From NCBI GenBank assembly GCA_035699745.1, contig DASSPH010000107.1:124001-188000 (forward strand): 64,000 bases of DNA, given 5' to 3'. The DNA is from Vicinamibacterales bacterium. GTDB taxonomy: Bacteria > Acidobacteriota > Vicinamibacteria > Vicinamibacterales > 2-12-FULL-66-21. A program made the position numbers and the translations under genes. The number at the start of each line of letters is the position of its first letter. Positions within the stretch are counted from its first letter, which is position 1. Shown here one piece after another: positions 7,002 to 27,607 of the stretch. The notes beneath the pieces were generated by a model. The model searched no databases, was not told the origin of the DNA, and worked only from the letters and a program-made list of their open reading frames with translations.

Positions 7002-7337
7002 ATGGATCTCTTCGTCACGCGCGCCGCCACCATCGCTCACGATGTGGAGGCGGCGGGTTCGTCACGGGCATTTCGCTCGGCGGTGCAGGATTTCGAGCGG
7101 CTGCTGTCGCGCATAGCGCGCTACCCGTCCGACTTCCTCACCGACGGCGACGCTCACGCCCTGGCGTCGCTCGCCGACATCGTGGTGAATCGCATCGAGG
7201 ATCGGCTGGACGCGCACGCCGATCGCAGCAAGGTGCAGCTCGAGCTCGCCCGCCGGATCTATCAGGTCCGCCGCGATCTCGAGACCATCTTCGCGGTGGT
7301 GCGGACCGCCGACGAGGGTGCCGCCCTGCGCGCCTGA
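7002..7337 (+). CDS. Hypothetical helical protein
   Basis: A 111-aa, mainly alpha-helical, cytosolic protein starting MDLFVTRAATIAHDVE. A consensus AGGAGG lies five bases before the ATG. It has no recognisable motif; the C-terminal half is charged (NRIEDRLDAHADRSK). Its last 76 bp overlap the 3' end of the CHAD gene on the other strand, an unusually long tail-to-tail overlap. Its promoter and site place it in the sigma-54 regulon. Confidence 0.65.
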   Translation: MDLFVTRAATIAHDVEAAGSSRAFRSAVQDFERLLSRIARYPSDFLTDGDAHALASLADIVVNRIEDRLDAHADRSKVQLELARRIYQVRRDLETIFAVVRTADEGAALRA

Positions 7338-8176
7338 GGGCGCCGCACCAGACGCAGCGCCGCCTGCGCTTCCGCGGCGGCGCGCGTCCGCAGCTCCGAC
7401 CGATAGTGCCGCAGCAGCCGCAGCGCCGTCGCGGTGTCCCGCCGCGACGCCACCCCTTCTTCGACGAGCAGCCGCTCCAGGATCGTCACGTTGTGCGCGT
7501 CGTCGAGGATGCCGTCGAGGACGTCCAGCCGCCGGCGAAGCGCCTGCAGCCCGCGACGATACGGTTCGAGCAGGCGCACGTGCAGCCACAGGCGCGTCGT
7601 GCTCCGCCGCCACTCGCGCTCCCGCCGCGGCGTCGGCCGATCGAGCGCCCGGGCGAGCGCCGCCGCCGCCTGCCGCCGGCTCTTCTCGAGCCCGGTCTCG
7701 ACCGGCACGGTCTGCCGCTCGATCTCCCACGTGCCGATGCGCGCCCGCTCGACCGCCACCGCCGTCTCGGCTCTTTTCAACAGCCGCGTTGCGGCGGCGC
7801 TGAGGTCGGCGCGCTCCGCCCGCTGCACGAGGGCGGTCCTGACGGCGTCGAGCGCCGGCCGCGCGTCGCCCGCGTCCGGCCGCGACGCGAGCCGGGCGAG
7901 CGTCGCGAGCGCGGTGAACTCGGTCTCGACCGCCGCAAGGCGCCGGTTGAGCGTGCGCAGCCGGCGGTTGCCCTCGTCGAACGCCTCGTCGGTCAGCCGC
8001 GGGCGCAGCAGCCGCAGCAGCGCGCGCACCCGGCGGATGCGGCGGCGCGCATCGTGGACCCAGTCGCCGTGGTTCGATCCGGCGCGATGCAGATCGTCCA
8101 GCGCCAGCGCCAGCTGATCGTCCGCGAGCCGTGTCGCCTGCTCACCGAGGGCGGGCTGGCGTGACCGGTCATGCAT
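7262..8176 (-). CDS. CHAD domain protein
   Basis: A 304-aa protein consisting of a CHAD domain (conserved histidine alpha-helical domain), a family that binds inorganic polyphosphate through conserved histidines and basic residues. The hallmark VHDARRRIRRVRALLRLL lies near residues 40-57, with a second helical repeat carrying TTRLWLHVRLLEPYRRGLQALRRRL and LDDAHN in the C-terminal half. It is very rich in arginine, fitting a polyanion ligand. Unlike many CHAD proteins it lacks a CYTH triphosphatase domain. It overlaps the end of the NhaA-like gene by 8 bp and is the last gene of a six-gene unit. Polyphosphate binding is known for the family and inferred here. Confidence 0.88.
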   Translation of the reverse strand: MHDRSRQPALGEQATRLADDQLALALDDLHRAGSNHGDWVHDARRRIRRVRALLRLLRPRLTDEAFDEGNRRLRTLNRRLAAVETEFTALATLARLASRPDAGDARPALDAVRTALVQRAERADLSAAATRLLKRAETAVAVERARIGTWEIERQTVPVETGLEKSRRQAAAALARALDRPTPRREREWRRSTTRLWLHVRLLEPYRRGLQALRRRLDVLDGILDDAHNVTILERLLVEEGVASRRDTATALRLLRHYRSELRTRAAAEAQAALRLVRRPQARRAAPSSAVRTTAKMVSRSRRT

Positions 8177-9371
8177 GATGCGCCTCCGAGTGGTGCTTGC
8201 GTGAATACCTGCCGAGGCCGAATGCCCGCGCGGCGAGGAGCGCCGCCGGCGCCGCGACCACGGACAGCAGCGCGCCGAGCTTCAGTTCCGCGAGCATCGG
8301 GCCCACCGGCACCAGCCCGACGGAGAAGAACAGCGCGAACGTGAAGCCGCTGGACATCGCCAGCGCGATGACGATCATCGCCGGCCAGCCGAGGCGCCGC
8401 GGCAGATGGAAGCCGAGTGCGACGGCGACGGCGACGGCGGCGAGAATGCCGACAGGGCGGCCCACCAGCAACGCGGTCAACAGCGCCCAGGTCCCCGTAT
8501 CGTACCCGCGCAGCATCACGCCGGCGTTCACCAGCCCGAAGGTGAAGAGAATCAACTGGACGGCGACGTTCCACCGCTGCTCGAAATGATGCACGTCGTC
8601 GGTGTCGTGCGGATCGGCGAAGAACTCGAGCCGCCGCGGCGCATGCGGCAGCAGCGGCACGATCGGAATCAGCGCCAGCGCCGGATGGATGCGGTTCAGG
8701 TACAGGCCCCACCACGCGAGCGGTCCGCAGAGCGCCAGGTACGGCCAGAAGACGTGCACGCGGCGCCGGCGCAGCATCGCCGCCGCCGCGACGGCGGCCA
8801 GCACCAGCACGAGACCGGCGGGGTGCGTCTCGACCCCGCGAGGGCGCAGCGCCATCGCGACGACTCCCGCGGCGTCGCTGGCGAGCGCGATCAGCAGGAC
8901 GAACGGCAGCGCGGCGCTGCGGCGCCAGACGCTCTTGATCACGTAGTACGCGGCGGCGACGTCGACCGCTCCCGCGATCGGCCATCCCTGCCGCAGCACG
9001 AGCTGGTGGCTCATGCCGACGTAGATGACATAGGCGCCGTATGCCCCGGCGAGGCCGCCCCCGGCGGCGACCAGCGCCATGCCCCACCGCCGCCAGGTGT
9101 GCAGCGCGCCGCCCGGCATCATCGCGTCGTAGACTTCCTGCGCCATCAGCGCGAGGAACAGCGCCATCGCGATCTCGTTCACCGGAAAATCGAGCGCGCG
9201 CGCGAAGCGGAAATAGCTCTCCGGACTGACGTTCGCCCAGACCACGGCCAGCGCCGCGCCCAGGGGCAGGAGCAGGAACCGGTCGAAGACGAAACGGGCG
9301 ATGCGTTCGAGCGGCGCCAGGCGCAGCTCCGGCAGCGTCATCGCCTCCTGCGCTTCGGTGTGGTGTCTCAT
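8169..9371 (-). CDS. nhaA: Divergent NhaA-type Na+/H+ antiporter
   Basis: A 400-aa inner-membrane protein with about 11-12 hydrophobic helices, homologous to NhaA. The segment GAVDVAAAYYVI matches the E. coli ATDIAFALGV region and keeps its aspartate (Asp133). However, the ion-binding Asp163-Asp164 pair (AIIDDLGA) is replaced by ALASDAAG, losing the first aspartate. The Lys300 position reads LLVGRPVGI, an arginine. Ion coupling may therefore differ from E. coli NhaA, or the protein may do something else. The start at 9371 has GGAGA upstream; the reading frame extends further into the phosphoesterase gene and should not be used. It is the fifth gene of the operon. Confidence 0.82.
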   Translation of the reverse strand: MRHHTEAQEAMTLPELRLAPLERIARFVFDRFLLLPLGAALAVVWANVSPESYFRFARALDFPVNEIAMALFLALMAQEVYDAMMPGGALHTWRRWGMALVAAGGGLAGAYGAYVIYVGMSHQLVLRQGWPIAGAVDVAAAYYVIKSVWRRSAALPFVLLIALASDAAGVVAMALRPRGVETHPAGLVLVLAAVAAAAMLRRRRVHVFWPYLALCGPLAWWGLYLNRIHPALALIPIVPLLPHAPRRLEFFADPHDTDDVHHFEQRWNVAVQLILFTFGLVNAGVMLRGYDTGTWALLTALLVGRPVGILAAVAVAVALGFHLPRRLGWPAMIVIALAMSSGFTFALFFSVGLVPVGPMLAELKLGALLSVVAAPAALLAARAFGLGRYSRKHHSEAHHA

Positions 9372-9388
9372 GACGCACTCTCCGCTGT

Positions 9389-10255
9389 TCACGTCGTCGG
9401 GCGCAGGCGGATGATGCCCGCGTCCACGACCCGGCCCGTTCGCGAGATGGTCTGGAAGAACATCGTGGGTCCGGCGATCTCGACGAGCGTGAAGCTCTGA
9501 TCCTGATCGAAGGCCGCCGCGGTCATGGCGCTCGGCTCGACGTCGCCGCGCCGCAGCTGCCCGCTGGCGCCCTGGACGAAGTGGGTGATGCCCTTCTGCG
9601 GCACCACGCGTTCGTAGATGTGCTCGTGCCCGGCGAAGACGACCGACACCCCGTAGCGCACCAGGATCGGCTCGAGCACGACGCGCAGCTCCACGTTCGA
9701 GCCGTGCCGCCCGCCATCCGAATAGAGCGGATGGTGGAAGTAGCAGATCTTCCACTCCTCCGTCGCGTCCCTCAGCGTGTTCTCCAGCCAGCCGACCTGT
9801 GCCCGATCGAGGGCGTTCGTATCGAGCACCACGAACCGCACGTTGCCGCGCGCGTAGGTGTAGTACCGCGCGCCGTTCATGTTGAAGCCCTTGTAGGTGC
9901 GATTGTCCGGATCGTCGTGGTTGCCGAGCGCGGCGTAGAACGGGAGCCCGGCCTCGAGCAGCGGCGCGTACGGACGCTCGAACTTCTGCACGAAATCCGC
10001 GGCCTGCTGGCGCCCGTACATGTTGTCGCCGAGCATGACGACGAACTCGAACGGGAAGCGCGCCCGTGCGGCCGTCATCTGGGCGCCGACTTCGTACTGC
10101 GGCCGGTCGCCGGTGCCGTTGTCGCCGATGACGGCGAATCGCACGGATCCCGGGACGAGGGGAAAGCCCGTGTCCTGCGCGGCCGTCCAGGCATGCCCCG
10201 CGAGCAGGATCGCGAGCAGCGCGAGGCAGCGTCGAGCGTGCGGCTGGATGGTCAT
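9389..10255 (-). CDS. Exported metallophosphoesterase (calcineurin-like)
   Basis: A 288-aa phosphoesterase with a signal peptide (LLAILLAGHAWTAAQ). It contains the whole purple-acid-phosphatase-type metal centre: FAVIGDNGTGD, VMLGDNMYG, ALGNHDD, CYFHHPLYS and FAGHEHIYER. It should hydrolyse phosphate esters in the periplasm using two metal ions; the substrate is unknown. The ATG overlaps the stop of the PPDK-like gene as ATGA, so translation is coupled. Its place in an operon with PPDK-like and CHAD genes points to phosphate or polyphosphate handling. Confidence 0.88.
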   Translation of the reverse strand: MTIQPHARRCLALLAILLAGHAWTAAQDTGFPLVPGSVRFAVIGDNGTGDRPQYEVGAQMTAARARFPFEFVVMLGDNMYGRQQAADFVQKFERPYAPLLEAGLPFYAALGNHDDPDNRTYKGFNMNGARYYTYARGNVRFVVLDTNALDRAQVGWLENTLRDATEEWKICYFHHPLYSDGGRHGSNVELRVVLEPILVRYGVSVVFAGHEHIYERVVPQKGITHFVQGASGQLRRGDVEPSAMTAAAFDQDQSFTLVEIAGPTMFFQTISRTGRVVDAGIIRLRPTT

Positions 10256-11889
10256 GCCGGTCCCGTCCCTTCTGCTGTGGTCAGCGCTTCCGGAGGCGCC
10301 TGCCGGGTGCGCCAGCGCCGCACGAGCGCCAGATCCTCGACCGGCCGTTCCGTCACCACCGGCACGCGGCCGTCGTAGATCACGCCGCTCTCGCCGTCGA
10401 GCGTGATCTCGTCTCCTTCGCGGAGGCGGCGGCCGCCGAGCGACCCGCTGCGTCCTCCCTCGTCGCAGCGGAGCGACGCGCAGCCGACGAGACAGACCTT
10501 GCCCAGCTGCCGCGCCACGACGGCGGCGTGAGAGGTGCGTCCGCCGAAGGTCGTCAGCACGCCGGCGGCGGCGGCCAGCCCCGCAATGTCGTCGGTGGTC
10601 AGCTCCGATCGCAGCAGCACCGTCGGCCGTCCCCCGGGGTCGCGCGTCCGGGCGGCGTCGAAGACGACGGCGCCGGTCGCCACGCCGACGCTCGCCGGGA
10701 TGGCCTGCGCGATCGGGCGGTCGAGCGGACCCGGCGCGACGACTACCCGCCTGATCGCGTCGAGGTCGTACGGCGCCAGCCGCTCGACCGCTGTGGCTTC
10801 GTCGAGCACACCTTCGCGTACGAGGTCGGTGGCGATTCGCAGCGCCGCCCACGGGGTTCGCTTCCCGGGGCGCGTCTGCAGGTAGAACAGGCGCCCGTCG
10901 TCGACGGTGAACTCGAGATCCTGCATGTCGCGAAACTCGCGTTCGAGCAGCGAGCGCGCCGACTGCAGCTGCGCCCAGACCGCGGGCAGAAGCGCCGGCA
11001 GGCGCGCGCCGCCGGCGACGGGAAGGCGTCCGGCGACGACGTCCTCTCCCTGGCCGTTGGACGCGAAGTCGACGTACAGCCCGGGGTTGCCGGTCGCGGG
11101 ATCACGCGTGAACGCAACCCCTGATCCCGAGCGCGGACCGCTGTTGCCGAAGACCATGGCCTGAATGAGCACACCGGTGCCGGTCGCGTCGTCCAGGCCG
11201 TTCAAGCGCCGGTAGGCGCGCGCGGACGGCGAGGTCCACGACGCGAGCACCGCTGCGACCGCCTCGAGGACCTGCGTGACGCGATCCCGCGGAAGCGGCG
11301 CGCCGGTGAGTTCCTCGAACCGGGCGGCGGACGCGCGCGCCAGGCTGCGCATCGAGATCGGATCGAGATCCTGAAGCGTCTCGGCCCCCGCCGCGGCGAG
11401 ATGCTCGGCGGCGATTCGTTCGAACGGCGCCGCCGGACAGTGCCGCACGCGCTCGGCAAAGGAGCGGATGAACCGCCGGTAGGTGTCCCACGCCAGCCAC
11501 GGGCTGCCCGTCTGCCGGATGAGTGCGGCGACGGCATCCTCGTTCATGCCGGCGTCGAGCACGGTGCCCAGCATGCCGGGCATCGACTTGGGCGGGCTGG
11601 AGCGGATGGACACGACCAGCTGCGTGGGCGCGCCGAGCGCCGTCGACGCGGCGTGCTCCAGGCCGCGCAGCCACGGTGCAATGCGCCGGCGCAGACCGGC
11701 AGGCAGCGCGCTCCCGCGCATGAACGCACGCGCGAGATCGGTGGTCAGCGCCAGCGCGGGGGGCACGGGCAGCCCCAGCCGCTGCAAGCGGGCGAGGTTG
11801 GCTGCCTTGCCGCCGACGACGGCCGGGTCGAAGGCGGCTGGCGGCATCTGGCCGCCGATGAAGTACGCACGGCACGGGTCGCGGCTCAC
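10252..11889 (-). CDS. Pyruvate, phosphate dikinase-like protein lacking the pyruvate domain
   Basis: A 545-aa protein matching the first two parts of PPDK only. The nucleotide-binding part has SIRSSPPKSMPGMLGTVLD, IQAMVFGNSGPRSGSG with AFTRDPATG, and DMQDLEFTVDDGRLFYLQTR. The phosphohistidine part has TTFGGRTSHAAVVARQLGK with the catalytic His. It stops soon after EITLDGESGVIYDGRVP. The PEP/pyruvate-binding TIM barrel (about 330 residues) of normal 870-890 aa PPDK is missing, and no adjacent gene supplies it. The GTG at 11889 overlaps the upstream stop as GTGA and has GGAGG before it. It may pass phosphate from ATP to His and then to an unknown acceptor. Confidence 0.85.
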   Translation of the reverse strand: MSRDPCRAYFIGGQMPPAAFDPAVVGGKAANLARLQRLGLPVPPALALTTDLARAFMRGSALPAGLRRRIAPWLRGLEHAASTALGAPTQLVVSIRSSPPKSMPGMLGTVLDAGMNEDAVAALIRQTGSPWLAWDTYRRFIRSFAERVRHCPAAPFERIAAEHLAAAGAETLQDLDPISMRSLARASAARFEELTGAPLPRDRVTQVLEAVAAVLASWTSPSARAYRRLNGLDDATGTGVLIQAMVFGNSGPRSGSGVAFTRDPATGNPGLYVDFASNGQGEDVVAGRLPVAGGARLPALLPAVWAQLQSARSLLEREFRDMQDLEFTVDDGRLFYLQTRPGKRTPWAALRIATDLVREGVLDEATAVERLAPYDLDAIRRVVVAPGPLDRPIAQAIPASVGVATGAVVFDAARTRDPGGRPTVLLRSELTTDDIAGLAAAAGVLTTFGGRTSHAAVVARQLGKVCLVGCASLRCDEGGRSGSLGGRRLREGDEITLDGESGVIYDGRVPVVTERPVEDLALVRRWRTRQAPPEALTTAEGTGPA

Positions 11890-13823
11890 AGGTGGCCTCC
11901 TCCGAGTCCGAGGGCATGGTCGCGAATCGCCGTGGCGCATCGGGCCAGGCCGTCCGCGGCGTCCTCGAGGCAGCGCGCCGCGCCGGTCAACACGTGCAGA
12001 TCGCGGGATGAGGCACTTCCGTCGAGGAACACCGCGCGGGCGGACCGCTCCGCGGCATCGACGGCGTGCTCCAGCGCCGTGATCCGGTCGACCGCGATCA
12101 GCACTTCGTCGACCGCGGCGGGGCCGGCGGCCCGGAGCGCCTTCGCATGCTCGAGCGCGCGGACGTAGTCGCGCGCGCCGGTCCCGACGAGCTCGGCGAT
12201 CGATCGCAGCGAGGCGATTCCCGCCGGCGGCACGTCGGCGGACGCGAGCGTCAAGACGAAGGCGCACTCTTCCAGCGCGCCGGCGACGGGTTGGGCGCGG
12301 TCGAGCAGTTCCTGCAGGGCGGCGTCAGCGGCCGATCGCGCGAGCGTCCGGCTGAAGCCGGCGATCGCGGCATCGGCCCGCTCCTCCCACCGCGCGGCCA
12401 GCGCCGCGGTCTGTGCCGCCTTCCCGATCGCGAGACCCTGCTCGCTGCCGAGCGTCTGCTGCAGCCGCTCGATCAGCGCCGAGATCAGCATCGCGTGCTC
12501 GGCGACGACTTCGATCAGCTGCTCGGCCGGCGTCGCGAGATGACGCGCCAGCTCGACCTCCACTTGATCGGCGATCAATCGCACGGAGCGGCCCTGGTTC
12601 AGGGCGGTGGTGGCGATGCGCAGCACCGACTCGAGGAACGCCGTCGCGGCGTCCGCGCCGATCAGCTCGTCGAGCCGCAGGCCGTAGCGCGTGCGGTTCG
12701 GCGCGATGCGATCGAAGACGCTGCTGATCAACTGCGCGCCGCCGGCCTGAAGGAACGCGCGATGGCCGAACTGATTGTCGGCGGCCCATTTCAGCACGCG
12801 GACCGCCTCGCGGCGCGAGACGAACCGGCCCAGCTGCTTGCGCGCACGGTTCCAGTCGATCAGGAACACCAGGCGCGAGGCGACGAAGGTCAGGAACTGC
12901 TCCAGCTCCGCCTGTCCCGGTGCGGCGAAGTCGCCGACGATCGTTTCGAGCTCGTCGGTGCGCGACAGCGGACCCTCGCGCCACTCGACGCCGTACGGCG
13001 AGAGCGTCTCCTGCAGGAAGAGCAGACGCTTGCGGTGGACATCCGCATACGTCAGCCCGGCGGTCAGCCCGGCGACCCGGATGACGATCACGTGCCCGTC
13101 GGTCGTGCCCAGATCGTTCTGGATCGACAGCGCGTCGCGCGATCGCGCGGCGGTGGTGCCGAGGCCGGGATGATCGAACTTCAGCCCCGCGGTGGCGTTC
13201 AGCCCTTTCATGAACGCCGCGATGAGCGGACGATCCTGCGGGGCGACGCCGAGCACCCGCGCGCCGTCGATCGACTCGACGGCGACGCTGGCGAGCAGCG
13301 CGTTCAGCTCCTTGTGCACGTCCATGACCAGCCGATGGAAGGTCTCGTCGCCGACGCGGGTCAGCGCTTCGATCGCGCGAACGTCGACCTGGTCCTCCTG
13401 CCAGACCGGCGCTTCGGCGGCGCACGCCTCGAGACGGCGGACATACGAGTCCAGCCGCGTGTGCCCCGGGTATTCGGGAGGCGCGGCGCGCAGCGGTTCG
13501 AGCATGCGCCGCATATCGGCGAAGAGGGCCGCGCGAACGCGCTCGGCCCCGGGAAACACCAGCAGCGTGTCGGACAGGCTCTGACTGAGCGCGACGGCTT
13601 CGTCGAGCGCCGCGTCGGTGACGCCGGCGGCGGCGCGCGCTGCGCGCAGGTCGGGCACGGCCGCAAACGGCCGCCCGGCGTGCGCCGCGACCGCCTGCAG
13701 GAGCGTGAGGTAGTACTTGATCCGATCGTTGGCCGCCAGCCCGCCGCGGATCAGATCCGCCAGCTGCAGCGGCCCATCGGCAAGGGTGTCGTCGATCGAG
13801 TCGAGTCGTGGGGTCGGAGTCAC
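11886..13823 (-). CDS. Large helical protein linked to the PPDK-like gene
   Basis: A 645-aa cytosolic protein, almost entirely alpha-helical, without a recognised family over most of its length. The last 80 residues (DRITALEHAVDAAERSARA to LEDAADGLARCATAIRDHA) resemble PhoU/DUF47-type helical bundles, a weak match made by eye. The start is a GTG with GGAGG five bases upstream, one base after the stop of the preceding gene. Its stop overlaps the PPDK-like GTG. Tight coupling on both sides suggests a complex or shared pathway with the PPDK-like protein, possibly as acceptor or regulator. Confidence 0.7.
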   Translation of the reverse strand: MTPTPRLDSIDDTLADGPLQLADLIRGGLAANDRIKYYLTLLQAVAAHAGRPFAAVPDLRAARAAAGVTDAALDEAVALSQSLSDTLLVFPGAERVRAALFADMRRMLEPLRAAPPEYPGHTRLDSYVRRLEACAAEAPVWQEDQVDVRAIEALTRVGDETFHRLVMDVHKELNALLASVAVESIDGARVLGVAPQDRPLIAAFMKGLNATAGLKFDHPGLGTTAARSRDALSIQNDLGTTDGHVIVIRVAGLTAGLTYADVHRKRLLFLQETLSPYGVEWREGPLSRTDELETIVGDFAAPGQAELEQFLTFVASRLVFLIDWNRARKQLGRFVSRREAVRVLKWAADNQFGHRAFLQAGGAQLISSVFDRIAPNRTRYGLRLDELIGADAATAFLESVLRIATTALNQGRSVRLIADQVEVELARHLATPAEQLIEVVAEHAMLISALIERLQQTLGSEQGLAIGKAAQTAALAARWEERADAAIAGFSRTLARSAADAALQELLDRAQPVAGALEECAFVLTLASADVPPAGIASLRSIAELVGTGARDYVRALEHAKALRAAGPAAVDEVLIAVDRITALEHAVDAAERSARAVFLDGSASSRDLHVLTGAARCLEDAADGLARCATAIRDHALGLGGGHL

Positions 13824-13824
13824 G

Positions 13825-14361
13825 TCATCCTCCGGAGACGGCGACTGCGAGCGTGGCGGCGATGGCCAGCGGCAATCCCCACCCGACCAGGCAGACGGCA
13901 ATCGCGCGGCCCGTGCTGTTGAAGTCGAGCGCCTGCCTGACGGCGACGACGCTCGCGGCTATGGTCCACGCGAGCGCCAGGACCGCCGTGGCGATCGGCG
14001 CGGGGCTGAACAGGCCGAACACCTGGATGACTCCGGGTGCTGCCGCGAATCCCAGGGTGCGCAGCAGCTCGCCGGCGTCGGCGCGGGTGCCGTCCACCGG
14101 CAGCAGCCGCGACCCGACGTGGAACGTCACCACCGCGAACGTCGCCCACGTCGCGAGCGCCAGCACGCTCGCAAGCGCGGCGAACGACAACGTGGCCGCC
14201 ACGCCGCGCGCGCCGTTCAGGCCGATTCCCGCGGCGATGCTCGAGAGCAGGACGACACCCAGGGCCTGCTTGGTGGCGCTGCGGTCGGCTTCGACTTCTT
14301 CGTAGGTGGCGGCATCCAGCATGGCGGCGCCGGCGAGACGGCGCAGGAAGGTGACCAGCAT
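13825..14361 (-). CDS. Yip1-family-like membrane protein
   Basis: A 178-aa inner-membrane protein with about five hydrophobic helices after a short cytosolic N-terminus (MLVTFLRRLAGAAMLDAATYEEVEAD, first part only hydrophobic near the start). The pattern resembles bacterial Yip1-domain proteins. AGGAGA precedes the ATG at 14361. It is the first gene of the six-gene unit and lies 13 nt after the predicted sigma-54 start. It could anchor the helical and PPDK-like proteins to the membrane; that is a guess. Confidence 0.7.
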   Translation of the reverse strand: MLVTFLRRLAGAAMLDAATYEEVEADRSATKQALGVVLLSSIAAGIGLNGARGVAATLSFAALASVLALATWATFAVVTFHVGSRLLPVDGTRADAGELLRTLGFAAAPGVIQVFGLFSPAPIATAVLALAWTIAASVVAVRQALDFNSTGRAIAVCLVGWGLPLAIAATLAVAVSGG

Positions 14362-14384
14362 GTCAATCTCCTGCGTCAGCAATC

Positions 14385-14400
14385 AGCACGGAGCGTGCCC
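14385..14400 (-). promoter_or_regulatory. sigma-54 promoter of the six-gene PPDK/CHAD operon
   Basis: The minus strand reads GGGCACGCTCCGTGCT (GGCACG-N4-GTGCT). The predicted start near 14374 leaves a 13-nt leader carrying AGGAGA. The -24 element lies 71 bp from the midpoint of the site at 14453-14486. Confidence 0.8.
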
Positions 14401-14505: not shown

Positions 14506-15132
14506 TCATGCGATTCCTCCGGAAACGGCGGGAACGGCCTCGCCGCGGACGAGGTGGGCGATTGCGGGGGCGATGGCGTCGATCGGAAGCACGTAGTCGA
14601 CGGCGCCGGATGCGATCGCGGAGCGCGGCATGCTCCAGTGCTCCGCGGTGGCCGGGTCCTGCGCGATCACCACGCCGCCGCAGGCCTTCACTTCCTGCAC
14701 GCCGTCCGTCGCATCGCTGCCGCCGCCGGTGAGGACCACGGCGATGAAGCGCCCCTCGAAGACCCTCGCCGCGGACGCGAACAGCGGATTGGCGGACGAG
14801 CGGACGAACTTGATCTTGGTGCCGTCCCGGTACTCGAAGGTCCGGTCGGGACTGACGATCAGGTGTCGGTCAGGACGCGCGAGATAGATCTGCCCGGTAC
14901 GAAGCGGTTCGCCTGCCGCGGCGAGACGTATCTGCCAGGGTGTGCCGCGGGTCAGCACGGCGCCCATGCCGTCCTGGCGGATGGGCGACCGGTGCTGCAG
15001 CAGCACGACCGCGGCAGGCAGATCGAGCGGCAGCGCCGCGAGGATCGTGCGGATCGCGCCGATGCCGCCGGCGGACGCGGCGATGCCGACGAGCCAGTCG
15101 GGGCGGCGCTCATCCGCCGGTATTCCGCTCAC
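14506..15132 (-). CDS. Stand-alone CheB-type methylesterase domain
   Basis: A 208-aa CheB catalytic domain without the receiver domain of chemotaxis CheB. The Ser-His-Asp triad is visible: VGIAASAGG (Ser near 17), VLLQHRSP and [11 protein letters not shown]. It should be a cytosolic glutamate methylesterase/amidase, but no chemotaxis genes are nearby. Such orphan domains occur in stress and signalling clusters. The GTG at 15132 overlaps the BON gene stop as GTGA. It is the second gene of the BON-CheB unit under a sigma-54 promoter. Confidence 0.85.
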
Positions 15133-15791
15133 GGCACCACGTCGATGCGGTTGTCCACGCTCGAGACGCCGGGCGCCGACCACGCGGCATGCATCGCGTC
15201 GTAGCGTTCGCGCCACGAGCGGACGTTGCCGGTCAGGATCACCCGCCCGCCCTCGGCGGTGACGTGAATGCGGCGCGCCTCCAGGTCGGCATAGCGATGC
15301 AGCGCGTCGGCGATGCGCTTCTCGACGTCGCGGGGGGAGGTCCGCGGCTTGATCTCGATCTTGTTGGCGACGCCGCGCACGCCGCGCAGGTAGCGCACGG
15401 CGCGTTCCGCCGCCAGCTTCTGGAACATCCACTCGACCTCTCCGGTGAGCGTCAGGTGGCCGTTGCGCACCGTGACGCCGATGCCCAGCGGAACGTCGAC
15501 GCGCTTCTTCAGCGCGTCCAGCGCTTCGCGCGCCAGGTCCGGATCGATGTGGTCGTGCGCCAGCTTGACCTCGAGCTCGTTGGCGATCCCGCGCACGCCG
15601 TAGACGCGCCGCACCGCGCGCTCCGCCGCCAGCTTGGCGCTGTAGGTGTCGACGAACCCCGACAGCGTCACGACGCCGTCCTCGGCCGAGACGCCGACCA
15701 GCGATTCGTCGAACGAGGGCTCCCACGCGAGCTGGCGGATCACCGCTTCGCGCAGGATCTGATCCTTGGTGGAGATGGCTGTAATACGCAT
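15129..15791 (-). CDS. Triple BON-domain protein
   Basis: A 220-aa protein of three consecutive BON domains (about 5-75, 78-148 and 150-220). Each has the pattern of a short helix, a VTLSG/LTLTG/VILTG strand and a conserved glycine ([33 protein letters not shown]). It has no signal peptide, so unlike OsmY it appears cytosolic. BON domains are thought to bind membranes or hydrophobic ligands and are common in stress regulons. It lies 16 nt after the predicted sigma-54 start. Confidence 0.88.
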
Positions 15792-15817
15792 GGCATTCCC
15801 CTTCGTCCGGCTCGCAC

Positions 15818-15833
15818 GGCAAGCCGCGTACCG
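15818..15833 (-). promoter_or_regulatory. sigma-54 promoter of BON-cheB
   Basis: The minus strand reads CGGTACGCGGCTTGCC, with GG and GC ten bases apart. The -24 element is 62 bp from the midpoint of the site at 15877-15910. The predicted start is near 15807. Confidence 0.75.
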
Positions 15834-15876
15834 GCGGCGCCGGCCGTGCGGGTCCGGGCGCGTCGCCGCAGCAGGC

Positions 15877-15910
15877 GCGGAAAGTTTCGCGCCGGTGCGG
15901 ATTGATCCGC
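15877..15910. promoter_or_regulatory. Paired palindrome, putative activator site (UAS 5)
   Basis: GCGGAAAGTTTCGC (15877-15890) and GCGGATTGATCCGC (15897-15910) have centres exactly 20 bp apart. The second is a palindrome apart from its central bases. It serves two divergent sigma-54 promoters and is one of the clearest copies. Confidence 0.8.
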
Positions 15911-15962
15911 GCGGCGCCGAGGCCCGCGCGGGCAGATCGCCGTCTTTCATGGGGGGCGTGTC

Positions 15963-15978
15963 CGGCACTCCGATTGCT
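15963..15978 (+). promoter_or_regulatory. sigma-54 promoter of the ADH-USP operon
   Basis: CGGCACTCCGATTGCT matches GGCAC-N5-TTGCT. The -24 element is 71 bp from the midpoint of the shared site. The predicted start is near 15989, before the ATG at 16010. Confidence 0.82.
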
Positions 15979-16009
15979 CTCTGTCGCATGAACTCGAACA
16001 AGGCCGGAC

Positions 16010-17664: not shown

Positions 17665-20334
17665 TCAGTACTCCACCCTCCGGCCGTGCTTCGCCGCAGT
17701 GGCGGCGCCGATCCGCACCCGAACGTCGGCGGCGCAGGCTCCTGTGGGAAGGACGATCACCGGGTTGAGATCGAGCTCCTGGATTTCCGGCGCGATTCCC
17801 ACGATCTCCGAGACGCGCAGCAACACCTCGCGCAGGGCCTGTTCGTCGGCGGGCGGCGATCCCCGGTAGCCGCGCAGCAGCGTGGCGCCGCGAAGCTCGC
17901 CGATCATGTCGGCGGCATCCGTCGCCGTCAGCGGGTGCAGGCGGAACGAGGTGTCGGCGAGCACGTCGACCATGACGCCCCCCGTCCCGCACGCGATCAG
18001 CGCGCCGAACAACGGGTCCTGCAGCGCGCCGACGATCATCTCTGCACCTGACGCGACCATCCGCTGCACGAGAACGGATGTCATGTCGGAGCCGAGGCGG
18101 GTCGCCAAGTCCGCGTACGCCGCCTCTACCCCGGCGGCATCGGTGAGATTGAGCGTGACGCCCTTGCGTTCGGTCTTGTGCAGCAGCGCCGGGCCGAGCG
18201 CTTTCAGAACGACGGGATATCCCATCCGCGACGCCGCCTCGACGGCCCCGGCGGGGCTGGTGACGACCCGAGATGCGGGGATGGCAATGCCCGCAGCCGT
18301 CAACAGCGCCTGCGCTTCCTCCGCCGAGAGCCAGCCCGGCCCCCGCGCGCCCGCCCCCTCGACGATGCGGCGGATGGCATCGCGGTCGAACCGCTCGAGC
18401 GCGGGCGCGGGCAGGATCGGCGTCTCCCGCCACTTCCCGTACGCGGTCACGCGGGCGAGCGCGAGGGCGGCCGACTCGGGAAACGCATACGACGGGATCG
18501 GCGCCAGCGATGCCGGCGCCCCCTCGGCGCGCATGAACACGCCGAGCACCGGCTTGTCGTGATGATCCGCCGCCGCGGCGGTGAGCGCGCCGGCGACCGC
18601 CTGCGGCTCGGTGACCAGCGGCGGAATGAAGATCGCGATCACGCTGTCGATCGCGGCGTCCCGCAGAATCGCCCCGAGCGCACGGCCGAAGTGCTCCGGC
18701 GTCGCCGAAGCCAGCAGATCGACCGGATTGTTCACGCTCGCCGCCGCGGGCAGGAACGATCGCAGTTCCAAACGCGTCGCCTCGCTCAAGGAGGGCAGCT
18801 CCAGCCCGTTCGCCTCGCAGGCGTCCGCCGCCAGGATGCCCGGACCGCCGGCGTTGGTGAGAATCGCGACGCGCGCGCCGCGGGGAACCGGCTGGTGCGA
18901 CAGGAGCGCGGCCACGTCGAACATCTCTTCGAGGCGCTCCGTTCGAATGACGCCGGCCTGGCGGAACAGCGCGTCGACGACGACGTCGTTCGAGGCGAGC
19001 GCGCCGGTGTGCGACGCGGCCGCCCGGGACCCGGCGGTCGATCGGCCGGCCTTCACGGCCACGATCGGTTTCGTCCGCCCCACCCGGCGGGCGATCTCGG
19101 CGAACTTCTTGGGATTCCCGAAGCTCTCCAGATACAGCAGGATCACCGACGTGTGAGGATCCTCGGCCCAGTACTGGATGAGGTCGTTGCCGGACACGTC
19201 CGCCTTGTTGCCGACCGACACGAAGCTCGAGATCCCGATGTCGAGCCGCCGGGCGTAGTCGAGAATGGCGAGCCCCAGCGCGCCGCTCTGCGTCGACATC
19301 GCCACCGTGCCGCGCGGCGGGTAGACCGGCGAGAAGGTAGCGTTGAGCCGCACCGACGGATCCGTGTTGAGCAGCCCCATGCAGTTGGGGCCGATGAGCC
19401 GGCAGCCGGCGCGTCTCACCTTCTCCAGCAGCAGCGCTTCGCGGGCGCGTCCTTCCGTCCCGCACTCGCTGAAGCCGGCGCTGATCACGCAGATCGCGCG
19501 GACGCTCTTGGCGATGCAGTCGTCGACCGTGTCGAGCACGCGCCCGGCCGGGACGACGACGATCGCGAGATCGACCGGGCCCGGAATGTCGGTGACGCGC
19601 GGGTACGCTCTCCGGCCGGCGATCTCCTCCGCGGTCGGGTGGACCGGCACGATCGTCCCGGTGAACCCGGCCTCGACCAGGTTGTTCAGGATCTCCGATC
19701 CGATCCGTCCGCGCTGCCGGTTCGCGCCGATCACGGCCACGACCTGCGGCTCGAAGAAGGCGCGCATCGATGCCGCCGCGGCGTTCTGCGACCGGACAGC
19801 GGAATGCTCCACGAACTCGTCCGTGATCGCGAGAGACAGCGCGAAGTGCCAGGTCCCCGCCTGGAACGACACGGTGGCCGCCAGTCCCGAGTCGCGGAAC
19901 ACCTGCAGCATCTGCCCGTTGTCGCCGAGGACGTAGGCGTCGAACGTCTCGATCCCTTCCCGCCGCGCCAGGTTCGCCAGCTGCTCGAGCAGCCGGGTGC
20001 CGATGCCGTGCCCCTGGAACCCGTCGGCCACCGCGAACGACACTTCGGCGCGGGTCGACGGCCGCTGGACCTGGTGCCAGGTCGCGAATCCCACGATCCG
20101 CCCGCCCGACTCCGCGACCAGCGTCGTCGCCGGACAACCGTCGAGTCCGATCAAGGCGCGGATGCGCGGTTCGGTGAGCTGCGGGATGCCGTGGAAGCGG
20201 TAGTACAGACTCTGGGGGGACAGCGACTGCAGGAACGTCAGCAGGGGTTGCACGTCTCCGTCGGCGGCGCGCCGCACGGCGATCGTGGATCCGTCACGCA
20301 GCACGACGTCCGTGCCGCTCTCGGTGGTAATCAT
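17665..20334 (-). CDS. GNAT acetyltransferase fused to NDP-forming acyl-CoA synthetase
   Basis: An 889-aa fusion. Residues 15-165 form a GNAT domain with the acetyl-CoA motif QGHGIG (107-112). Residues from about 190 form the CoA-binding domain (VAVIGANRQRGRIG), then the succinyl-CoA-ligase-like part with the phosphohistidine motif in AASHTGALASND. An ATP-grasp domain fills the last 210 residues (GYPVVLKALGPALLHKTE). Lysine acetyltransferases of the Pat/YfiQ type have GNAT at the C-terminus; here it is N-terminal, as in actinobacterial PatA-like proteins. It may acetylate acyl-CoA synthetases or make ATP from acyl-CoA. It starts 34 bp after the activator gene, probably in one transcript. Confidence 0.88.
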   Translation of the reverse strand: MITTESGTDVVLRDGSTIAVRRAADGDVQPLLTFLQSLSPQSLYYRFHGIPQLTEPRIRALIGLDGCPATTLVAESGGRIVGFATWHQVQRPSTRAEVSFAVADGFQGHGIGTRLLEQLANLARREGIETFDAYVLGDNGQMLQVFRDSGLAATVSFQAGTWHFALSLAITDEFVEHSAVRSQNAAAASMRAFFEPQVVAVIGANRQRGRIGSEILNNLVEAGFTGTIVPVHPTAEEIAGRRAYPRVTDIPGPVDLAIVVVPAGRVLDTVDDCIAKSVRAICVISAGFSECGTEGRAREALLLEKVRRAGCRLIGPNCMGLLNTDPSVRLNATFSPVYPPRGTVAMSTQSGALGLAILDYARRLDIGISSFVSVGNKADVSGNDLIQYWAEDPHTSVILLYLESFGNPKKFAEIARRVGRTKPIVAVKAGRSTAGSRAAASHTGALASNDVVVDALFRQAGVIRTERLEEMFDVAALLSHQPVPRGARVAILTNAGGPGILAADACEANGLELPSLSEATRLELRSFLPAAASVNNPVDLLASATPEHFGRALGAILRDAAIDSVIAIFIPPLVTEPQAVAGALTAAAADHHDKPVLGVFMRAEGAPASLAPIPSYAFPESAALALARVTAYGKWRETPILPAPALERFDRDAIRRIVEGAGARGPGWLSAEEAQALLTAAGIAIPASRVVTSPAGAVEAASRMGYPVVLKALGPALLHKTERKGVTLNLTDAAGVEAAYADLATRLGSDMTSVLVQRMVASGAEMIVGALQDPLFGALIACGTGGVMVDVLADTSFRLHPLTATDAADMIGELRGATLLRGYRGSPPADEQALREVLLRVSEIVGIAPEIQELDLNPVIVLPTGACAADVRVRIGAATAAKHGRRVEY

Positions 20335-20368
20335 TCGCGGGTCCGTCCTTTTCGCCGGAGCGGCGAGA

Positions 20369-21736
<1,368 letters not shown>

Positions 21737-21754
21737 GACTCACCCGGGCCTCAG

Positions 21755-21770
21755 TGCAGGCAGGATGCCG
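21755..21770 (-). promoter_or_regulatory. sigma-54 promoter of the activator gene
   Basis: The minus strand reads CGGCATCCTGCCTGCA, with GG and GC ten bases apart. The -24 element is 70 bp from the midpoint of the site at 21822-21856. The leader is about 8 nt and contains GGTGAG. Confidence 0.72.
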
Positions 21771-21821
21771 GGGCTGGATCCGCGGATTCCGGCCAATTTT
21801 CGCCAATCGCCCCTGGGTCAT

Positions 21822-21856
21822 GCGGATTTTTCCCCAGCGCCGGCAGAATATTCCCC
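21822..21856. promoter_or_regulatory. Paired palindrome, putative autoregulatory site (UAS 6)
   Basis: Minus-strand 14-mers GGGGAATATTCTGC and GGGGAAAAATCCGC have centres 21 bp apart. A third, weaker half (GGCCAATTTTCGCC, 21791-21804, plus strand) lies nearer the promoter. It is located directly upstream of the activator gene. Confidence 0.72.
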
Positions 21857-21893
21857 GCGGGCCCGACGGCGTGGGCGGCCTGGACGGGCCTGG

Positions 21894-22406
21894 TCAATGG
21901 CTGCGGGAACGGCGTCGGGTGACTTCCCACCGGCCGCTGGCGATCGACTCGCCGAACCGGGAGACGAACGTGCCGGCCACGCGGCCGTCGCCGATCTCCC
22001 CGTGAAACGCGGTGAGCACCCAGCAGGCGCATGCCGGGTCCCAGTAAGGGTCCAGGACGCCATCGACGCGGCCATCCGCGGCGCGGACGAACCGGATCGT
22101 CAGGAACGCCTCGTTCGGCGGGCGTCGATCGGACGGGTGGAGATATCCCTCGGGCCCCTGCCGCCCGTAAGCCGTCGATGCGCCGGCCGCCGTCATGACG
22201 ACGTCGCCGTGCGCGTGGTCTTCCCCGTCGATCAACTTGAACCAGATGGACCCGCTGCGGCCGGTCGCGCGGCTGCTGTAGGTGCCGTCCCACTCCCCGG
22301 CCAGCGACGCGACGGCTGCAGGCGCTCCCCGCAGCGGAACCGCCGGCGCGGACGCGCAGCCGCTCGCCAGCAGCGCCGCGGCGATCGCGCGATGGAGGAT
22401 GGTCAT
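21894..22406 (-). CDS. Predicted lipoprotein
   Basis: A 170-aa protein with a lipoprotein signal: MTILHRAIAAALLASGCAS, lipobox LASGC with Cys at residue 17. The mature part is beta-rich (LAGEWDGTYSSRATGRSGSIWF, partly shown) and contains ACACW. No family recognised. The longer open frame upstream covers the next gene in another frame, so I start at 22406. It is the second gene of a two-gene unit with the 82-aa protein; the genes are 5 bp apart. Confidence 0.68.
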   Translation of the reverse strand: MTILHRAIAAALLASGCASAPAVPLRGAPAAVASLAGEWDGTYSSRATGRSGSIWFKLIDGEDHAHGDVVMTAAGASTAYGRQGPEGYLHPSDRRPPNEAFLTIRFVRAADGRVDGVLDPYWDPACACWVLTAFHGEIGDGRVAGTFVSRFGESIASGRWEVTRRRSRSH

Positions 22407-22411
22407 CGCCG

Positions 22412-22660
22412 CTATGCCGAACGCCGGCCGCTCCAGGCCCAGACGAAGGTCCTGCCGTTGGTGGCCAGCGTCCCCTCCTCGACGAGCGTGCCGAGCACAC
22501 GCTCGCATCGCACGACGTCGATAGCGAACAGGCGCGCGGCCTGCGGGAGCGTCAGCGTGAGTCCCGGCATCTCGCGAAACTCCGCCTCGACGCGGGTGCG
22601 CAGGCGGGTCTCGTCGTGCGGATCGGCGGGTGACGATTCGGGCTGGTGCAGTGCCGACAT
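22412..22660 (-). CDS. Small winged-helix-like protein
   Basis: An 82-aa cytosolic protein. The middle (FREMPGLTLTLPQAARLFAI, then CERVLGTLVEEGTL) has the spacing of a small helix-turn-helix or winged-helix domain: a recognition-like helix, a second helix and a beta wing ending NGRTFVWAW. It could bind DNA, but that rests on pattern only. It starts 15 nt after a strong sigma-54 promoter. Confidence 0.6.
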   Translation of the reverse strand: MSALHQPESSPADPHDETRLRTRVEAEFREMPGLTLTLPQAARLFAIDVVRCERVLGTLVEEGTLATNGRTFVWAWSGRRSA

Positions 22661-22685
22661 CGTGAATGATCTCTGCGGCCACCTC

Positions 22686-22701
22686 AGCAATCGCTGTGCC
22701 C
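22686..22701 (-). promoter_or_regulatory. sigma-54 promoter of the 22660-22406 unit
   Basis: The minus strand reads GGGCACAGCGATTGCT, almost consensus (GGCAC-N5-TTGCT). The -24 element is 70 bp from the midpoint of the site at 22753-22787. Confidence 0.82.
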
Positions 22702-22752
22702 GGCTTGGATCGCGCATTCGGGCCCGAGTCGGACGGAAGGCGGACCTACGGT

Positions 22753-22787
22753 GCGGAGGAGTTCGCAGCGCGGTGGGAAGAGTTCAC
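22753..22787. promoter_or_regulatory. Paired palindrome, putative activator site (UAS 7)
   Basis: GCGGAGGAGTTCGC (22753-22766) and TGGGAAGAGTTCAC (22774-22787) have centres 20-21 bp apart. Its last four bases overlap the 3' end of the HAD-ATPase gene. Confidence 0.65.
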
Positions 22788-24532
22788 GCCAGTGCCGGCT
22801 GGGGTTCCCCGGCGAGGTCGTAGCGGGCGCGCACGGCGTTGGCCAGGTCCGGCACGATCTCGTCCCGCGAGCCGGATCGATAGCGCTCCTCCACCGCCCG
22901 CAGATCGCTGGCGAGCGCACGGTCGCCGAAGACGTCTGCAATCCAGCGGGAGAAGTCGCCCCGCGTCAGGTGGCCGGCGAGCAGCGCCGGCGGCGTGCCC
23001 TCGAGTTCCTCGACGAACTGCCGCAGGGTGCGGGCGCGGAGCGGCTGCCCGTTGGTGTTGAACACGAAGGCGCGGTGCGCGCTCACCGGCACGTCGACGT
23101 ATTTCTCGCGGTGCCGGACGTGCGGGGTGATGCGGGGGGCGATCGTGAACAGCCGGAGCTCACCGCCCGCCTCCTCGGTAATCGGCAGGGCGATGGCCTG
23201 GCCGGCGTGCAGCCGGGACAACCCCACCCAGGCCGCGGGGTCGACGGCGCCGCACCCCGCGCACTTGGCGCGCAGCGCCGCGATCTCCGCCGGGTCCGAC
23301 TCGCACGTGACGATCATGACCTCCGTCGCGGCCAGCAGCGCCTTCGGCAGGTGCGACGCGCAGTAGGTCACGACGGTGTAGCCGTTCCGCTCCAGATCCA
23401 GGAGCTGCGGCGCGTCGGCGTCGTGCAGGTAATAGTGCGCCTCGTCGAGCAGGATGCGATGCGGCAGCCCGGTCCGCCGCCGCAGCACGTTCAACGCCGG
23501 CAGAACGGAGCGTACGTACTGCAGCTTCTCGTCGTGCGGCAGCCGGCACAGATCGATGACCACGCTGCGATCGGGATAGCGCAGCGCCCGCAGCAGGTCG
23601 CGCGGCGTGGGCGGAGCGTCTTCGCGGCCGAGCACCGTGACGCCCGGCAGCCCTTCCAGCGAGCTGTAGTCCCCTTCCGGATCGATGGCGCAGACGCAGT
23701 AGCCCTGGAGAATCAGCTGCTCGCACAGCAGCCCCGCGACCCAGGACTTGCCCGATTTCGCGTCCCCGGTGATCAGCACGTTGCGGCCGCGGGCGGCGAG
23801 CGAGAACTCGCGGCCGTCCTCGAGATGGCCGAGCAGCAGCCGGCGGCGGGCCTGCCGCGGCACCGGCAGTCGGGCCGTCGGCGTCACGCGGTTCACGTAC
23901 TCGGCGATCGCCGCCGGCGTCGCGCCGGGAACGACCACGTCCGCCGCGGCCTGCAGCGCCGGGCTGCCCCATGCCACGGCCGCGCCGACTTCCGCCAGGC
24001 GCAGCAGCTCGTGATCGTTCTCGGCGTCGCCGATCGCCAGGGCGTTGCGCGGCGACAGCCGCAGGGTCTCGAGCGCCGCGCGGAGCCCCGTCGCCTTGCT
24101 CATCCCCTGCGACGTCACCATGACGCGGCCGCGGTTGAAGATCAGCACCAGCGGCAGCTCGCAGGCGCGGATGACCTCGAGCAGACGCGGGGCGTCGTTG
24201 GCGTCCGCGTCCACCAGGCACTGCCCTGCGACGAACGGCAGGCCGCGCAGCCGCAGCTCCGCCAGGAACCGTTCCGGCACCACCGGCGCGAGCAGCGACG
24301 TCCGGCCGCTCTCCGGCAGGTGCAGCACCGCCCCGTTCTCCGCGACGACGCCGTCGACGAAGTGCAGATCCCCGGCGACGCGCTGCAGCTCGGCGAGAAT
24401 CCTCCCGGTCACGAGCAGCACGACGATGCCGCGCGTGCGGGCGGCGGCAATCGCCGTGCGCACGCCGGGATCGAGCACGTCGTTGCGTGCGATCGTTCCG
24501 TCGTAATCGAGTGCGAGGACCGCGAGTTTCAC
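22784..24532 (-). CDS. HAD phosphatase fused to a HerA/DUF87-like ATPase
   Basis: A 582-aa fusion. Residues 1-215 form a Cof-type HAD phosphatase: ALDYDGTIA with the nucleophile Asp, LLVTGR, and GDAENDHEL. Residues 235-450 form a P-loop ATPase like HerA/DUF87 proteins: LITGDAKSGKSW (Walker A), AIDPEGDY, and RILLDEAHYY (Walker B). The last 110 residues (FVFNTNGQPLRARTLRQFVE, then HLTRGDFSRWIADVFGDR) resemble DUF5752. I know of no established function for this combination. It follows groEL by 13 bp in the transpeptidase-Hsp20-GroEL unit. It might couple dephosphorylation to an ATP-driven motor on nucleic acid or protein. Confidence 0.8.
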   Translation of the reverse strand: MKLAVLALDYDGTIARNDVLDPGVRTAIAAARTRGIVVLLVTGRILAELQRVAGDLHFVDGVVAENGAVLHLPESGRTSLLAPVVPERFLAELRLRGLPFVAGQCLVDADANDAPRLLEVIRACELPLVLIFNRGRVMVTSQGMSKATGLRAALETLRLSPRNALAIGDAENDHELLRLAEVGAAVAWGSPALQAAADVVVPGATPAAIAEYVNRVTPTARLPVPRQARRRLLLGHLEDGREFSLAARGRNVLITGDAKSGKSWVAGLLCEQLILQGYCVCAIDPEGDYSSLEGLPGVTVLGREDAPPTPRDLLRALRYPDRSVVIDLCRLPHDEKLQYVRSVLPALNVLRRRTGLPHRILLDEAHYYLHDADAPQLLDLERNGYTVVTYCASHLPKALLAATEVMIVTCESDPAEIAALRAKCAGCGAVDPAAWVGLSRLHAGQAIALPITEEAGGELRLFTIAPRITPHVRHREKYVDVPVSAHRAFVFNTNGQPLRARTLRQFVEELEGTPPALLAGHLTRGDFSRWIADVFGDRALASDLRAVEERYRSGSRDEIVPDLANAVRARYDLAGEPQPALA

Positions 24533-24545
24533 CGGCCGCTCCGCG

Positions 24546-26171: not shown

Positions 26172-26201
26172 GATCCCGCTCCCGTGCTCTGCGCGGCCGC
26201 T

Positions 26202-26684
26202 TCAGGCCGCCGTCCTGGCCGGCGTCTGCGGCTCGTCGATCTGGATTCGCTGCGCCTCCGCCTTGATGCGGGCGGGCAGCGGCATGCTGACTTCGAGCAC
26301 CCCATCCGCGAAGGTCGCGCGGATGTCTTCCGTCTTCACTCCTTCGGGCAGCGGAACGGTGCGGTAGAAGCTGCCGTACTCGCGCTCGCTGCGGAACATC
26401 TGATCCTTCTTCTCCTCGATCTCGCGCTTCCGCTCGCCCGAGAGCGTCAGCTGCCCGTCGATCACCTCGACCGCGACGTCTTCCTTCTTCATGCCGGGAA
26501 GATCCACGCGGGTGATCAGCCGGTTGTCGCGCTGAAAGACGTCCACCTTCGGGAACCACGGTGCCGGCTCGGGCGTCGTCACCCGGGCGAAGAACGGCCG
26601 GCGGAAGGAGGTCCAGTCCTCGAACATGCGATCGATGTCCGACGAGAGGTTGCGAAGCCGTGCGATCGGGTTTCGCTCAGACAT
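26202..26684 (-). CDS. Small heat shock protein Hsp20
   Basis: A 160-aa alpha-crystallin-type chaperone. The alpha-crystallin domain spans about 45-140 (WFPKVDVFQRDNRLITRVDL, then GVLEVSMPLP); the C-terminal tail holds IQI, a version of the IXI motif that locks oligomers. It binds unfolding proteins without ATP. GGAGG lies five bases before the ATG. It is second in its operon, after the L,D-transpeptidase and before groEL, a natural hold-and-fold pair. Confidence 0.94.
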   Translation of the reverse strand: MSERNPIARLRNLSSDIDRMFEDWTSFRRPFFARVTTPEPAPWFPKVDVFQRDNRLITRVDLPGMKKEDVAVEVIDGQLTLSGERKREIEEKKDQMFRSEREYGSFYRTVPLPEGVKTEDIRATFADGVLEVSMPLPARIKAEAQRIQIDEPQTPARTAA

Positions 26685-26700
26685 ACTCGCCTCCTGAACG

Positions 26701-27471: not shown

Positions 27472-27483
27472 ACCGTGCGAGTG

Positions 27484-27499
27484 AGCAAGCCGGGTACCT
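27484..27499 (-). promoter_or_regulatory. sigma-54 promoter of the transpeptidase-hsp20-groEL operon
   Basis: The minus strand reads AGGTACCCGGCTTGCT, with GG and GC ten bases apart and a good -12 box. The -24 element is exactly 60 bp from the midpoint of the site at 27541-27574. Confidence 0.75.
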
Positions 27500-27540
27500 G
27501 CGGCGGCGCAGCCGTGCGCCGCGCGCGCGCCCGCCGCGGC

Positions 27541-27574
27541 GCGGAGAAGTCCGCAGGCGCGCGAAAGAATCCAC
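27541..27574. promoter_or_regulatory. Paired palindrome, putative activator site (UAS 8)
   Basis: GCGGAGAAGTCCGC (27541-27554) and GCGAAAGAATCCAC (27561-27574) have centres exactly 20 bp apart. It is located between the divergent genes at 27471 and 27638. Confidence 0.72.
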
Positions 27575-27607
27575 GGCACGGATGCCGACTTCGCCGCGCG
27601 GCCGTGC

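Follow-up and report, generated by a model that had tools for sequence, protein, structure and literature searches.

The 64-kb window analysed here (contig DASSPH010000107.1 of a Vicinamibacterales bacterium) carries a row of six genes on the minus strand (Table 1). Two of them, encoding a 645-residue protein that we call H645 and a short pyruvate phosphate dikinase (PPDKs), form an obligate, conserved pair, which is the core of an otherwise modular row and is probably an undescribed enzyme or switch of polyphosphate or phosphate metabolism that moves phosphate groups. The stop codon of the first gene, Yip1, overlaps the start of H645 in the letters GTGA, and the same overlap joins H645 to PPDKs. 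PPDKs overlaps the calcineurin-like metallophosphoesterase (MPE) gene in ATGA, 17 bp separate MPE from the NhaA-like gene, and the latter overlaps the CHAD gene by 8 bp. An earlier interpretation made from the letters of this DNA (the sequence-only reading) had described these six genes as a tightly coupled operon, and their coordinates, overlaps, gaps and Pfam names are borne out. The coupling of H645 to PPDKs exceeds chance, whereas that of all six genes does not. By eye, the N-terminus of MPE resembles an export signal.

Table 1. Genes of the six-gene row, in order of transcription
Feature	Position in window	Strand	Pfam match
Yip1-domain membrane protein, first gene of the row	13825..14361	-	Yip1, 7.6e-9
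H645, 645 aa, core of unknown fold and PhoU/DUF47-like tail	11886..13823	-	none over cut-off
PPDKs, 545 aa, short pyruvate phosphate dikinase	10252..11889	-	PPDK_N, 8.7e-40; PEP-utilizers, 1.6e-19
Calcineurin-like metallophosphoesterase (MPE)	9389..10255	-	Metallophos, 5.2e-16
NhaA-like Na+/H+ antiporter	8169..9371	-	Na_H_antiport_1, 7.7e-26
CHAD-domain protein	7262..8176	-	CHAD, 1.3e-10

Conservation and spread of the H645–PPDKs pair

One genome collection contains H645 at 21 loci, in archaea (Methanoculleus, Methanolinea, Methanoregulaceae, Methanosarcina, Methanolobus) and in bacteria (Acidobacteria, Bryobacteraceae, Casimicrobiaceae, Chromatiaceae and one bin labelled Phycisphaerales). In all 21, PPDKs follows directly downstream on the same strand, and further loci that were fetched keep this order wherever the contig allows. 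The sequence-only reading had named co-occurrence of the short PPDK with the 645-residue protein and CHAD as a check, and the first two do travel together: among 199 genomes of the archaeal class that holds Methanoculleus, H645 occurs in 37, cassette-type PPDKs in 37, both in 36 and neither in 161 (Fisher 3e-37). The pair is thus present in about one fifth of the sampled genomes of this class. In the two genomes with a single gene, the lone H645 or PPDKs ends less than 60 bases from a contig end. The distance matrices of the two proteins are strongly correlated (r = 0.94 overall, 0.95 within bacteria and 0.87 within archaea).

The scattered distribution of this two-gene cassette, with plasmid copies in Methylocella tundrae and Aquabacterium olei that have PPDKs directly behind H645 as well, suggests that it has spread laterally. 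Among 100 genomes of the window's own order, H645 occurs in that of the window only; full-length H645 is present in 2 of 297 genomes of the phylum, and H645 in 2 of 274 genomes of the class to which the Casimicrobiaceae locus belongs. Gene fusions of H645 and PPDKs, suspected from long open frames, were rejected as two separate genes. Partial H645 matches in the window's phylum turned out to be small separate proteins or PhoU-like proteins, not cassettes. The small proteins (L033 1378–1977, L034, L035 and L037) match H645 only at residues ~18–121, and one of them lies directly upstream of a protein that by eye resembles DUF4912.

The remainder of the row is variable. The Yip1 gene was found beside no other cassette among the loci examined, and MPE, NhaA and CHAD recur behind the cassette only in the bacterium at L029, where two extra genes are inserted. 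MPE and the divergent NhaA-like antiporter (window 9371–10255) are a conserved pair of their own, which stands without the cassette at L081, L082 and in a second copy in the window's genome (L099). Of the six-gene module that the sequence-only reading had proposed, only the H645–PPDKs pair is widely conserved. As MPE–NhaA also stands alone, the row is understood as a cassette joined to a separate MPE–NhaA pair and a CHAD gene.

Domain structure of PPDKs and H645

PPDKs consists of an ATP-grasp domain and a swivel phosphohistidine domain; the phosphoenolpyruvate (PEP)/pyruvate barrel is absent (no match to PEP-utilizers_C, PF02896), and the cassette PPDKs proteins stop just past the swivel domain. 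The protein aligns with Clostridium symbiosum PPDK across the nucleotide and swivel domains, and no catalytic residue that complete PPDK (TIGR01828; PDB 1kbl/1dik) has in its nucleotide half is missing: K22, R92, D321, E323, Q335, R337 and H455 of the C. symbiosum enzyme correspond to K28, R96, D324, E326, Q338, R340 and H454 of PPDKs. These residues are invariant in 16 cassette PPDKs, except that D324 is replaced by E in one, and H454 is the predicted phosphohistidine. The PPDKs model (pLDDT 88) superimposes on 1kbl with a TM-score of 0.84 over the query and 38% identity in the fold match. PPDKs scores 463 bits against the PPDK equivalog TIGR01828 (cut-off 843) and is also below the cut-off of the short-PPDK family NF004531/PRK05878 (399 vs 456 bits).

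The closest described protein is VadK (Rv1127c) of mycobacteria, a truncated PPDK described as a regulatory histidine kinase, which autophosphorylates on His422 and whose expression is aided by its operon partner Rv1126c (PMC13400623). Both proteins combine an ATP-grasp with a phosphohistidine domain after which the barrel is gone, both keep the catalytic residues intact, and both have a translationally coupled partner gene. They come from different organisms, however, and belong to separate lineages. In a tree that compares 27 cassette PPDKs with 17 complete enzymes and 10 short proteins of the VadK type, the cassette PPDKs form one clade (support 100/100) apart from the other two groups, and a joint clade of cassette and VadK-type proteins is rejected (p-AU 0.00245). 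Another short PPDK, encoded directly after a pyruvate kinase gene on a Skermanella rosea plasmid (L103 2451–5605), groups with complete PPDKs and thus represents a third, separate truncation.

The model of H645 (pLDDT 82.5) has a helical N terminus, a beta-rich region at ~183–300 and a PhoU-like domain at 430–645. Residues 17–430 have no Pfam, PDB or credible fold match; a PDB search with the sequence of the core returned nothing, and a viral fold library nothing credible. The PhoU-like tail, which the sequence-only reading had recognised, is upheld by its fold match to 2olt/2iiu in the PDB, where the TM-score on the target reaches 0.79. Against the PhoU_div/DUF47 profile (PF01865, cut-off 24.4) the result is mixed: the homologue L078 passes with 25.9, and L079 (17.3) and the window's H645 stay below. 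The tail also shares the E(D)xxxD metal-binding motifs of PhoU proteins (named as in PMC5686610): E480–D484 and E585–D589 are conserved and D511–D515 is present in 44 of 45 sequences. The likeness to PhoU/DUF47 proteins is confined to the last third of H645. Plasmid copies are annotated as "phosphate transport regulator" and "DUF47 family protein".

A 45-sequence family alignment shows 49 invariant positions in the H645 core, of which 12 are Arg, Lys or His and 8 are Asp or Glu. The invariant residues include H163, D168, H170, H218, D237, H244, D261, H263, R266, D323, R328, K329 and H354. H645 is a conserved family whose tail alone is similar to entries in the databases searched, which makes it a good target for structure determination. 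Methanogen proteins of the 334-residue type (L072 2666–3670, L073 2733–3737, L074 2802–3821 and L075 2768–3760) resemble the H645 core and are devoid of the PhoU tail. By eye, they mostly lie near an NADPH-dependent FMN-reductase-like gene; no short PPDK is found within the few kb examined around them, and they offer no functional clue.

The N-terminal domain of H645 may be related to the partner of VadK-type proteins. Short PPDKs of the VadK type are encoded on plasmids of Rhodococcus, Streptomyces, Novosphingobium, Diaphorobacter and M. branderi, where they lie beside a ~200-residue protein of a helical/wHTH family that is often annotated as MarR or transcriptional regulator. Its actinobacterial and proteobacterial plasmid homologues, rather than Rv1126c itself, were used in the comparison. 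The conserved half of this partner is colinear with H645 17–200, with equally spaced N-x10-Q and H-x6-H motifs, at an hhalign probability of <4%. The alignment to this segment scores 20.9, which is matched by 4 of 796 column shuffles (p ~0.005), and other H645 segments score 11–14. The relationship is suggestive at the level of sequence, and H645 differs from the VadK-type partner by ~450 further residues, which make up the beta-rich conserved core and the PhoU tail. Short PPDKs of two separate lineages appear to be paired with a related partner domain.

The ~200-residue "MarR" family accompanies RPH-like PEP-utilizing enzymes as well as short PPDKs of the VadK type at plasmid loci (L100, L101, L104, L105, L107, L109, L110 and L115–L118), and is fused to an AMP-ligase in L109 and to a PEP-utilizing enzyme in L116. 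It is probably not a transcription factor but a docking or acceptor domain of dikinases.

Polyphosphate genes around the cassette

The sequence-only reading had linked the row to polyphosphate through its CHAD protein, CHAD being a polyphosphate-binding module (PMC6537752). Independent support for this connection comes from the archaea. In ~8 kb around the cassettes, genes for the synthesis, degradation or binding of polyphosphate (PPK1, PPX and/or CHAD) are found at 11 of 46 archaeal cassettes and at none of 20 control loci, which were PEP-synthase loci from such genomes (Fisher 0.026); gene density predicts ~0.24 such loci. By Pfam, the flanking genes encode Ppx-GppA, CHAD fused to a metallophosphatase, PPK1 and CYTH-CHAD. 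The order is PPK1–CHAD–PPX–H645–PPDKs on one strand in L150, and L142 (PPK1–PPX–H645–PPDKs) and L018 (H645–PPDKs–CYTH-CHAD) are likewise co-directional. L158 and L146 are divergent and L175 is convergent. These differing layouts speak against a single inherited accident, although L146 and L158 are close relatives. In the window and in L029, CHAD belongs to the same operon as the cassette. The cassette is connected with the polyphosphate gene sets (PPK1, PPX/GppA, CHAD, CYTH) by its recurring archaeal neighbours and by the CHAD gene of the window's operon, but neither H645 nor PPDKs is homologous to any member of these sets.

The same genes are associated with the cassette at the level of whole genomes. 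In the archaeal sample, PPK1 is present in 36 of 38 cassette genomes vs 87 of 161 others, and CHAD in 36 of 38 vs 74 of 161, in counts that are uncorrected for relatedness. Among the bacterial cassette genomes tested, CHAD is found in 8 of 8 and PPK1 in 7 of 8. The window's genome (G000), which is listed as 100% complete, encodes two CHAD proteins; PPK1 was not found in it and PPK2 was not searched for. A survey of archaeal polyphosphate metabolism mentions neither PPDK nor CHAD (PMC6864096), and a literature search found no paper joining PPDK, polyphosphate and Methanoculleus and none joining DUF47 with pyruvate phosphate dikinase.

Possible functions of the pair

Taken together, the domain structure and the gene context make it quite conceivable, if somewhat short of probable, that H645 and PPDKs are two subunits of a phosphohistidine dikinase acting in polyphosphate or phosphate metabolism. 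Because the catalytic residues of PPDKs are intact and autophosphorylation has been measured for VadK, PPDKs would be expected to run the first PPDK half-reaction, in which ATP and inorganic phosphate (Pi) give phospho-His454 with release of AMP and pyrophosphate (PPi). The swivel domain, having no PEP barrel to turn to, would dock on H645. There the basic, His-rich invariant core would position the acceptor, most likely a polyphosphate chain end or another inorganic phosphate species, and the metal-binding PhoU-like tail may bind or sense phosphate. The phosphoryl group might be accepted by H645 itself, by polyphosphate or by a small molecule. With polyphosphate, the overall equation would read polyP(n) + ATP + Pi = polyP(n+1) + AMP + PPi; it would be reversible and could rebuild ATP from AMP and PPi. 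In its most specific form, this reading makes the pair a polyphosphate enzyme of a new class, a two-protein, AMP- and PPi-forming phosphohistidine polyphosphate dikinase that is unrelated to PPK1 and PPK2 and has spread laterally between archaea and bacteria. On this view the pair may be a route to polyphosphate in the organism of the window, where CHAD is present and a search for PPK1, though not for PPK2, found none. So exact a proposal is unlikely as it stands.

Several observations weigh against a role in polyphosphate metabolism. No PPK1, PPX or CHAD gene lies within ~8 kb of 35 of the 46 archaeal cassettes (with many of the contigs being short), and in bacteria the majority of cassettes are alone or beside unrelated genes, e.g. 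of fatty-acid oxidation. The association of PPK1 and CHAD with cassette genomes may partly reflect shared ancestry, and no known polyphosphate enzyme is a homologue of H645. Of 45 H645 sequences, that of the window alone has lost the DxxxD motif of the tail, with Q511, P512 and G515 in place of D511, D512 and D515.

The same components could also make up a regulatory phosphorelay, in which the phosphorylation of PPDKs reports ATP, AMP, Pi and PPi, and PPDKs phosphorylates H645, e.g. on the invariant H163 or H170, so that a phosphate transporter or polyphosphate enzymes come under the control of the PhoU-like tail. Such a relay is possible, though on the unlikely side. It agrees with the description of VadK as an autophosphorylating regulatory histidine kinase (PMC13400623), with the PhoU/DUF47-like tail, its E(D)xxxD motifs and the annotations of the plasmid copies, and with the resemblance of the H645 N-terminal part to the VadK-type partner, including the H-x6-H spacing. 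However, the invariant catalytic-type residues in the H645 core are denser than a pure signalling acceptor requires, and no phosphate transporter is seen in the annotated cassette neighbourhoods. The acceptor might instead be a metabolite held by H645 and unconnected to polyphosphate. In the two-component small-molecule dikinases HpeHI, CreHI and PpsAB (PMC12167813), as proposed for the cassette, ATP-grasp and swivel-His domains work in a two-protein enzyme with another acceptor-binding protein in place of the PEP barrel; HpeHI and PpsAB phosphorylate phenols and RPH phosphorylates rifampin, and the plasmid-borne cassettes adjoin catabolic genes. Yet HpeI carries the ATP-grasp alone and HpeH the swivel fused to an RPH-type substrate domain, whereas PPDKs has both ATP-grasp and swivel on one chain, and H645 has no fold match to the substrate domain of RPH. 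Catabolic context is also not conserved, and polyphosphate genes are the only recurring neighbours seen at archaeal cassettes, which makes a small-molecule dikinase distinctly improbable.

It is harder still to see all six genes as one dedicated polyphosphate module that includes ion exchange and an exported phosphoesterase. Translational coupling throughout the row and the MPE–NhaA–CHAD genes behind the cassette of L029 would fit such a module, but the cassette-free MPE–NhaA loci and the restriction of wide conservation to H645–PPDKs make it very doubtful. Least tenable is a split gluconeogenic PPDK, in which H645 and PPDKs would use the PEP/pyruvate barrel of another gene of the genome to turn pyruvate into PEP and back. 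Most cassette genomes (20 of 22) do encode a complete PPDK or PEP synthase elsewhere, and the window's genome has both, with the complete PPDK on another contig and the PEP synthase at window 28686–31409, which itself speaks against a split enzyme there. This is formally the complete partner domain that the sequence-only reading had counted against its own proposal. But G156, a 99% complete genome with a cassette, was searched for PEP-utilizers_C and has no such domain, and the cassette is therefore independent of a barrel. Nor does any of the cassettes examined have a gene for a separate barrel nearby, and the split enzyme is largely refuted.

The dikinase reading is not new in all its parts. 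The sequence-only reading had considered the system undescribed, which does not hold for the chemistry or for the idea of a truncated, barrel-less PPDK kinase, already known from VadK (PMC13400623); the partner family, the PPDKs clade and the genomic context do appear new. The context also sets the two systems apart, as the cassette lies beside polyphosphate genes and VadK beside the methylcitrate cycle. If correct, the dikinase reading would imply an undescribed link between polyphosphate and the adenylates, Pi and PPi, or a way of sensing these. If the two lineages of short PPDKs do share a related partner domain, that domain would be the missing acceptor or docking subunit for VadK. A role in dormancy, which had also been proposed, is left unsupported, with evidence neither for nor against it.

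The rest of the window adds some minor observations. Structured RNAs and tRNAs were sought in the whole 64 kb and none was found. A role in anti-phage defence was considered and rejected, as PADLOC gives no match for H645, PPDKs, MPE or CHAD. The same strand encodes, at 14506–16001 just upstream of the row, a protein with three BON domains and a CheB methylesterase that stands alone and reaches to 14506; these genes may share regulation with the six-gene row. Farther on, a minus-strand row at 17665–31409 encodes a fusion of an ADP-forming acyl-CoA ligase with a GNAT domain, a sigma-54 response regulator, a HAD phosphatase, a Cpn60/TCP-1 chaperonin and the PEP synthase.

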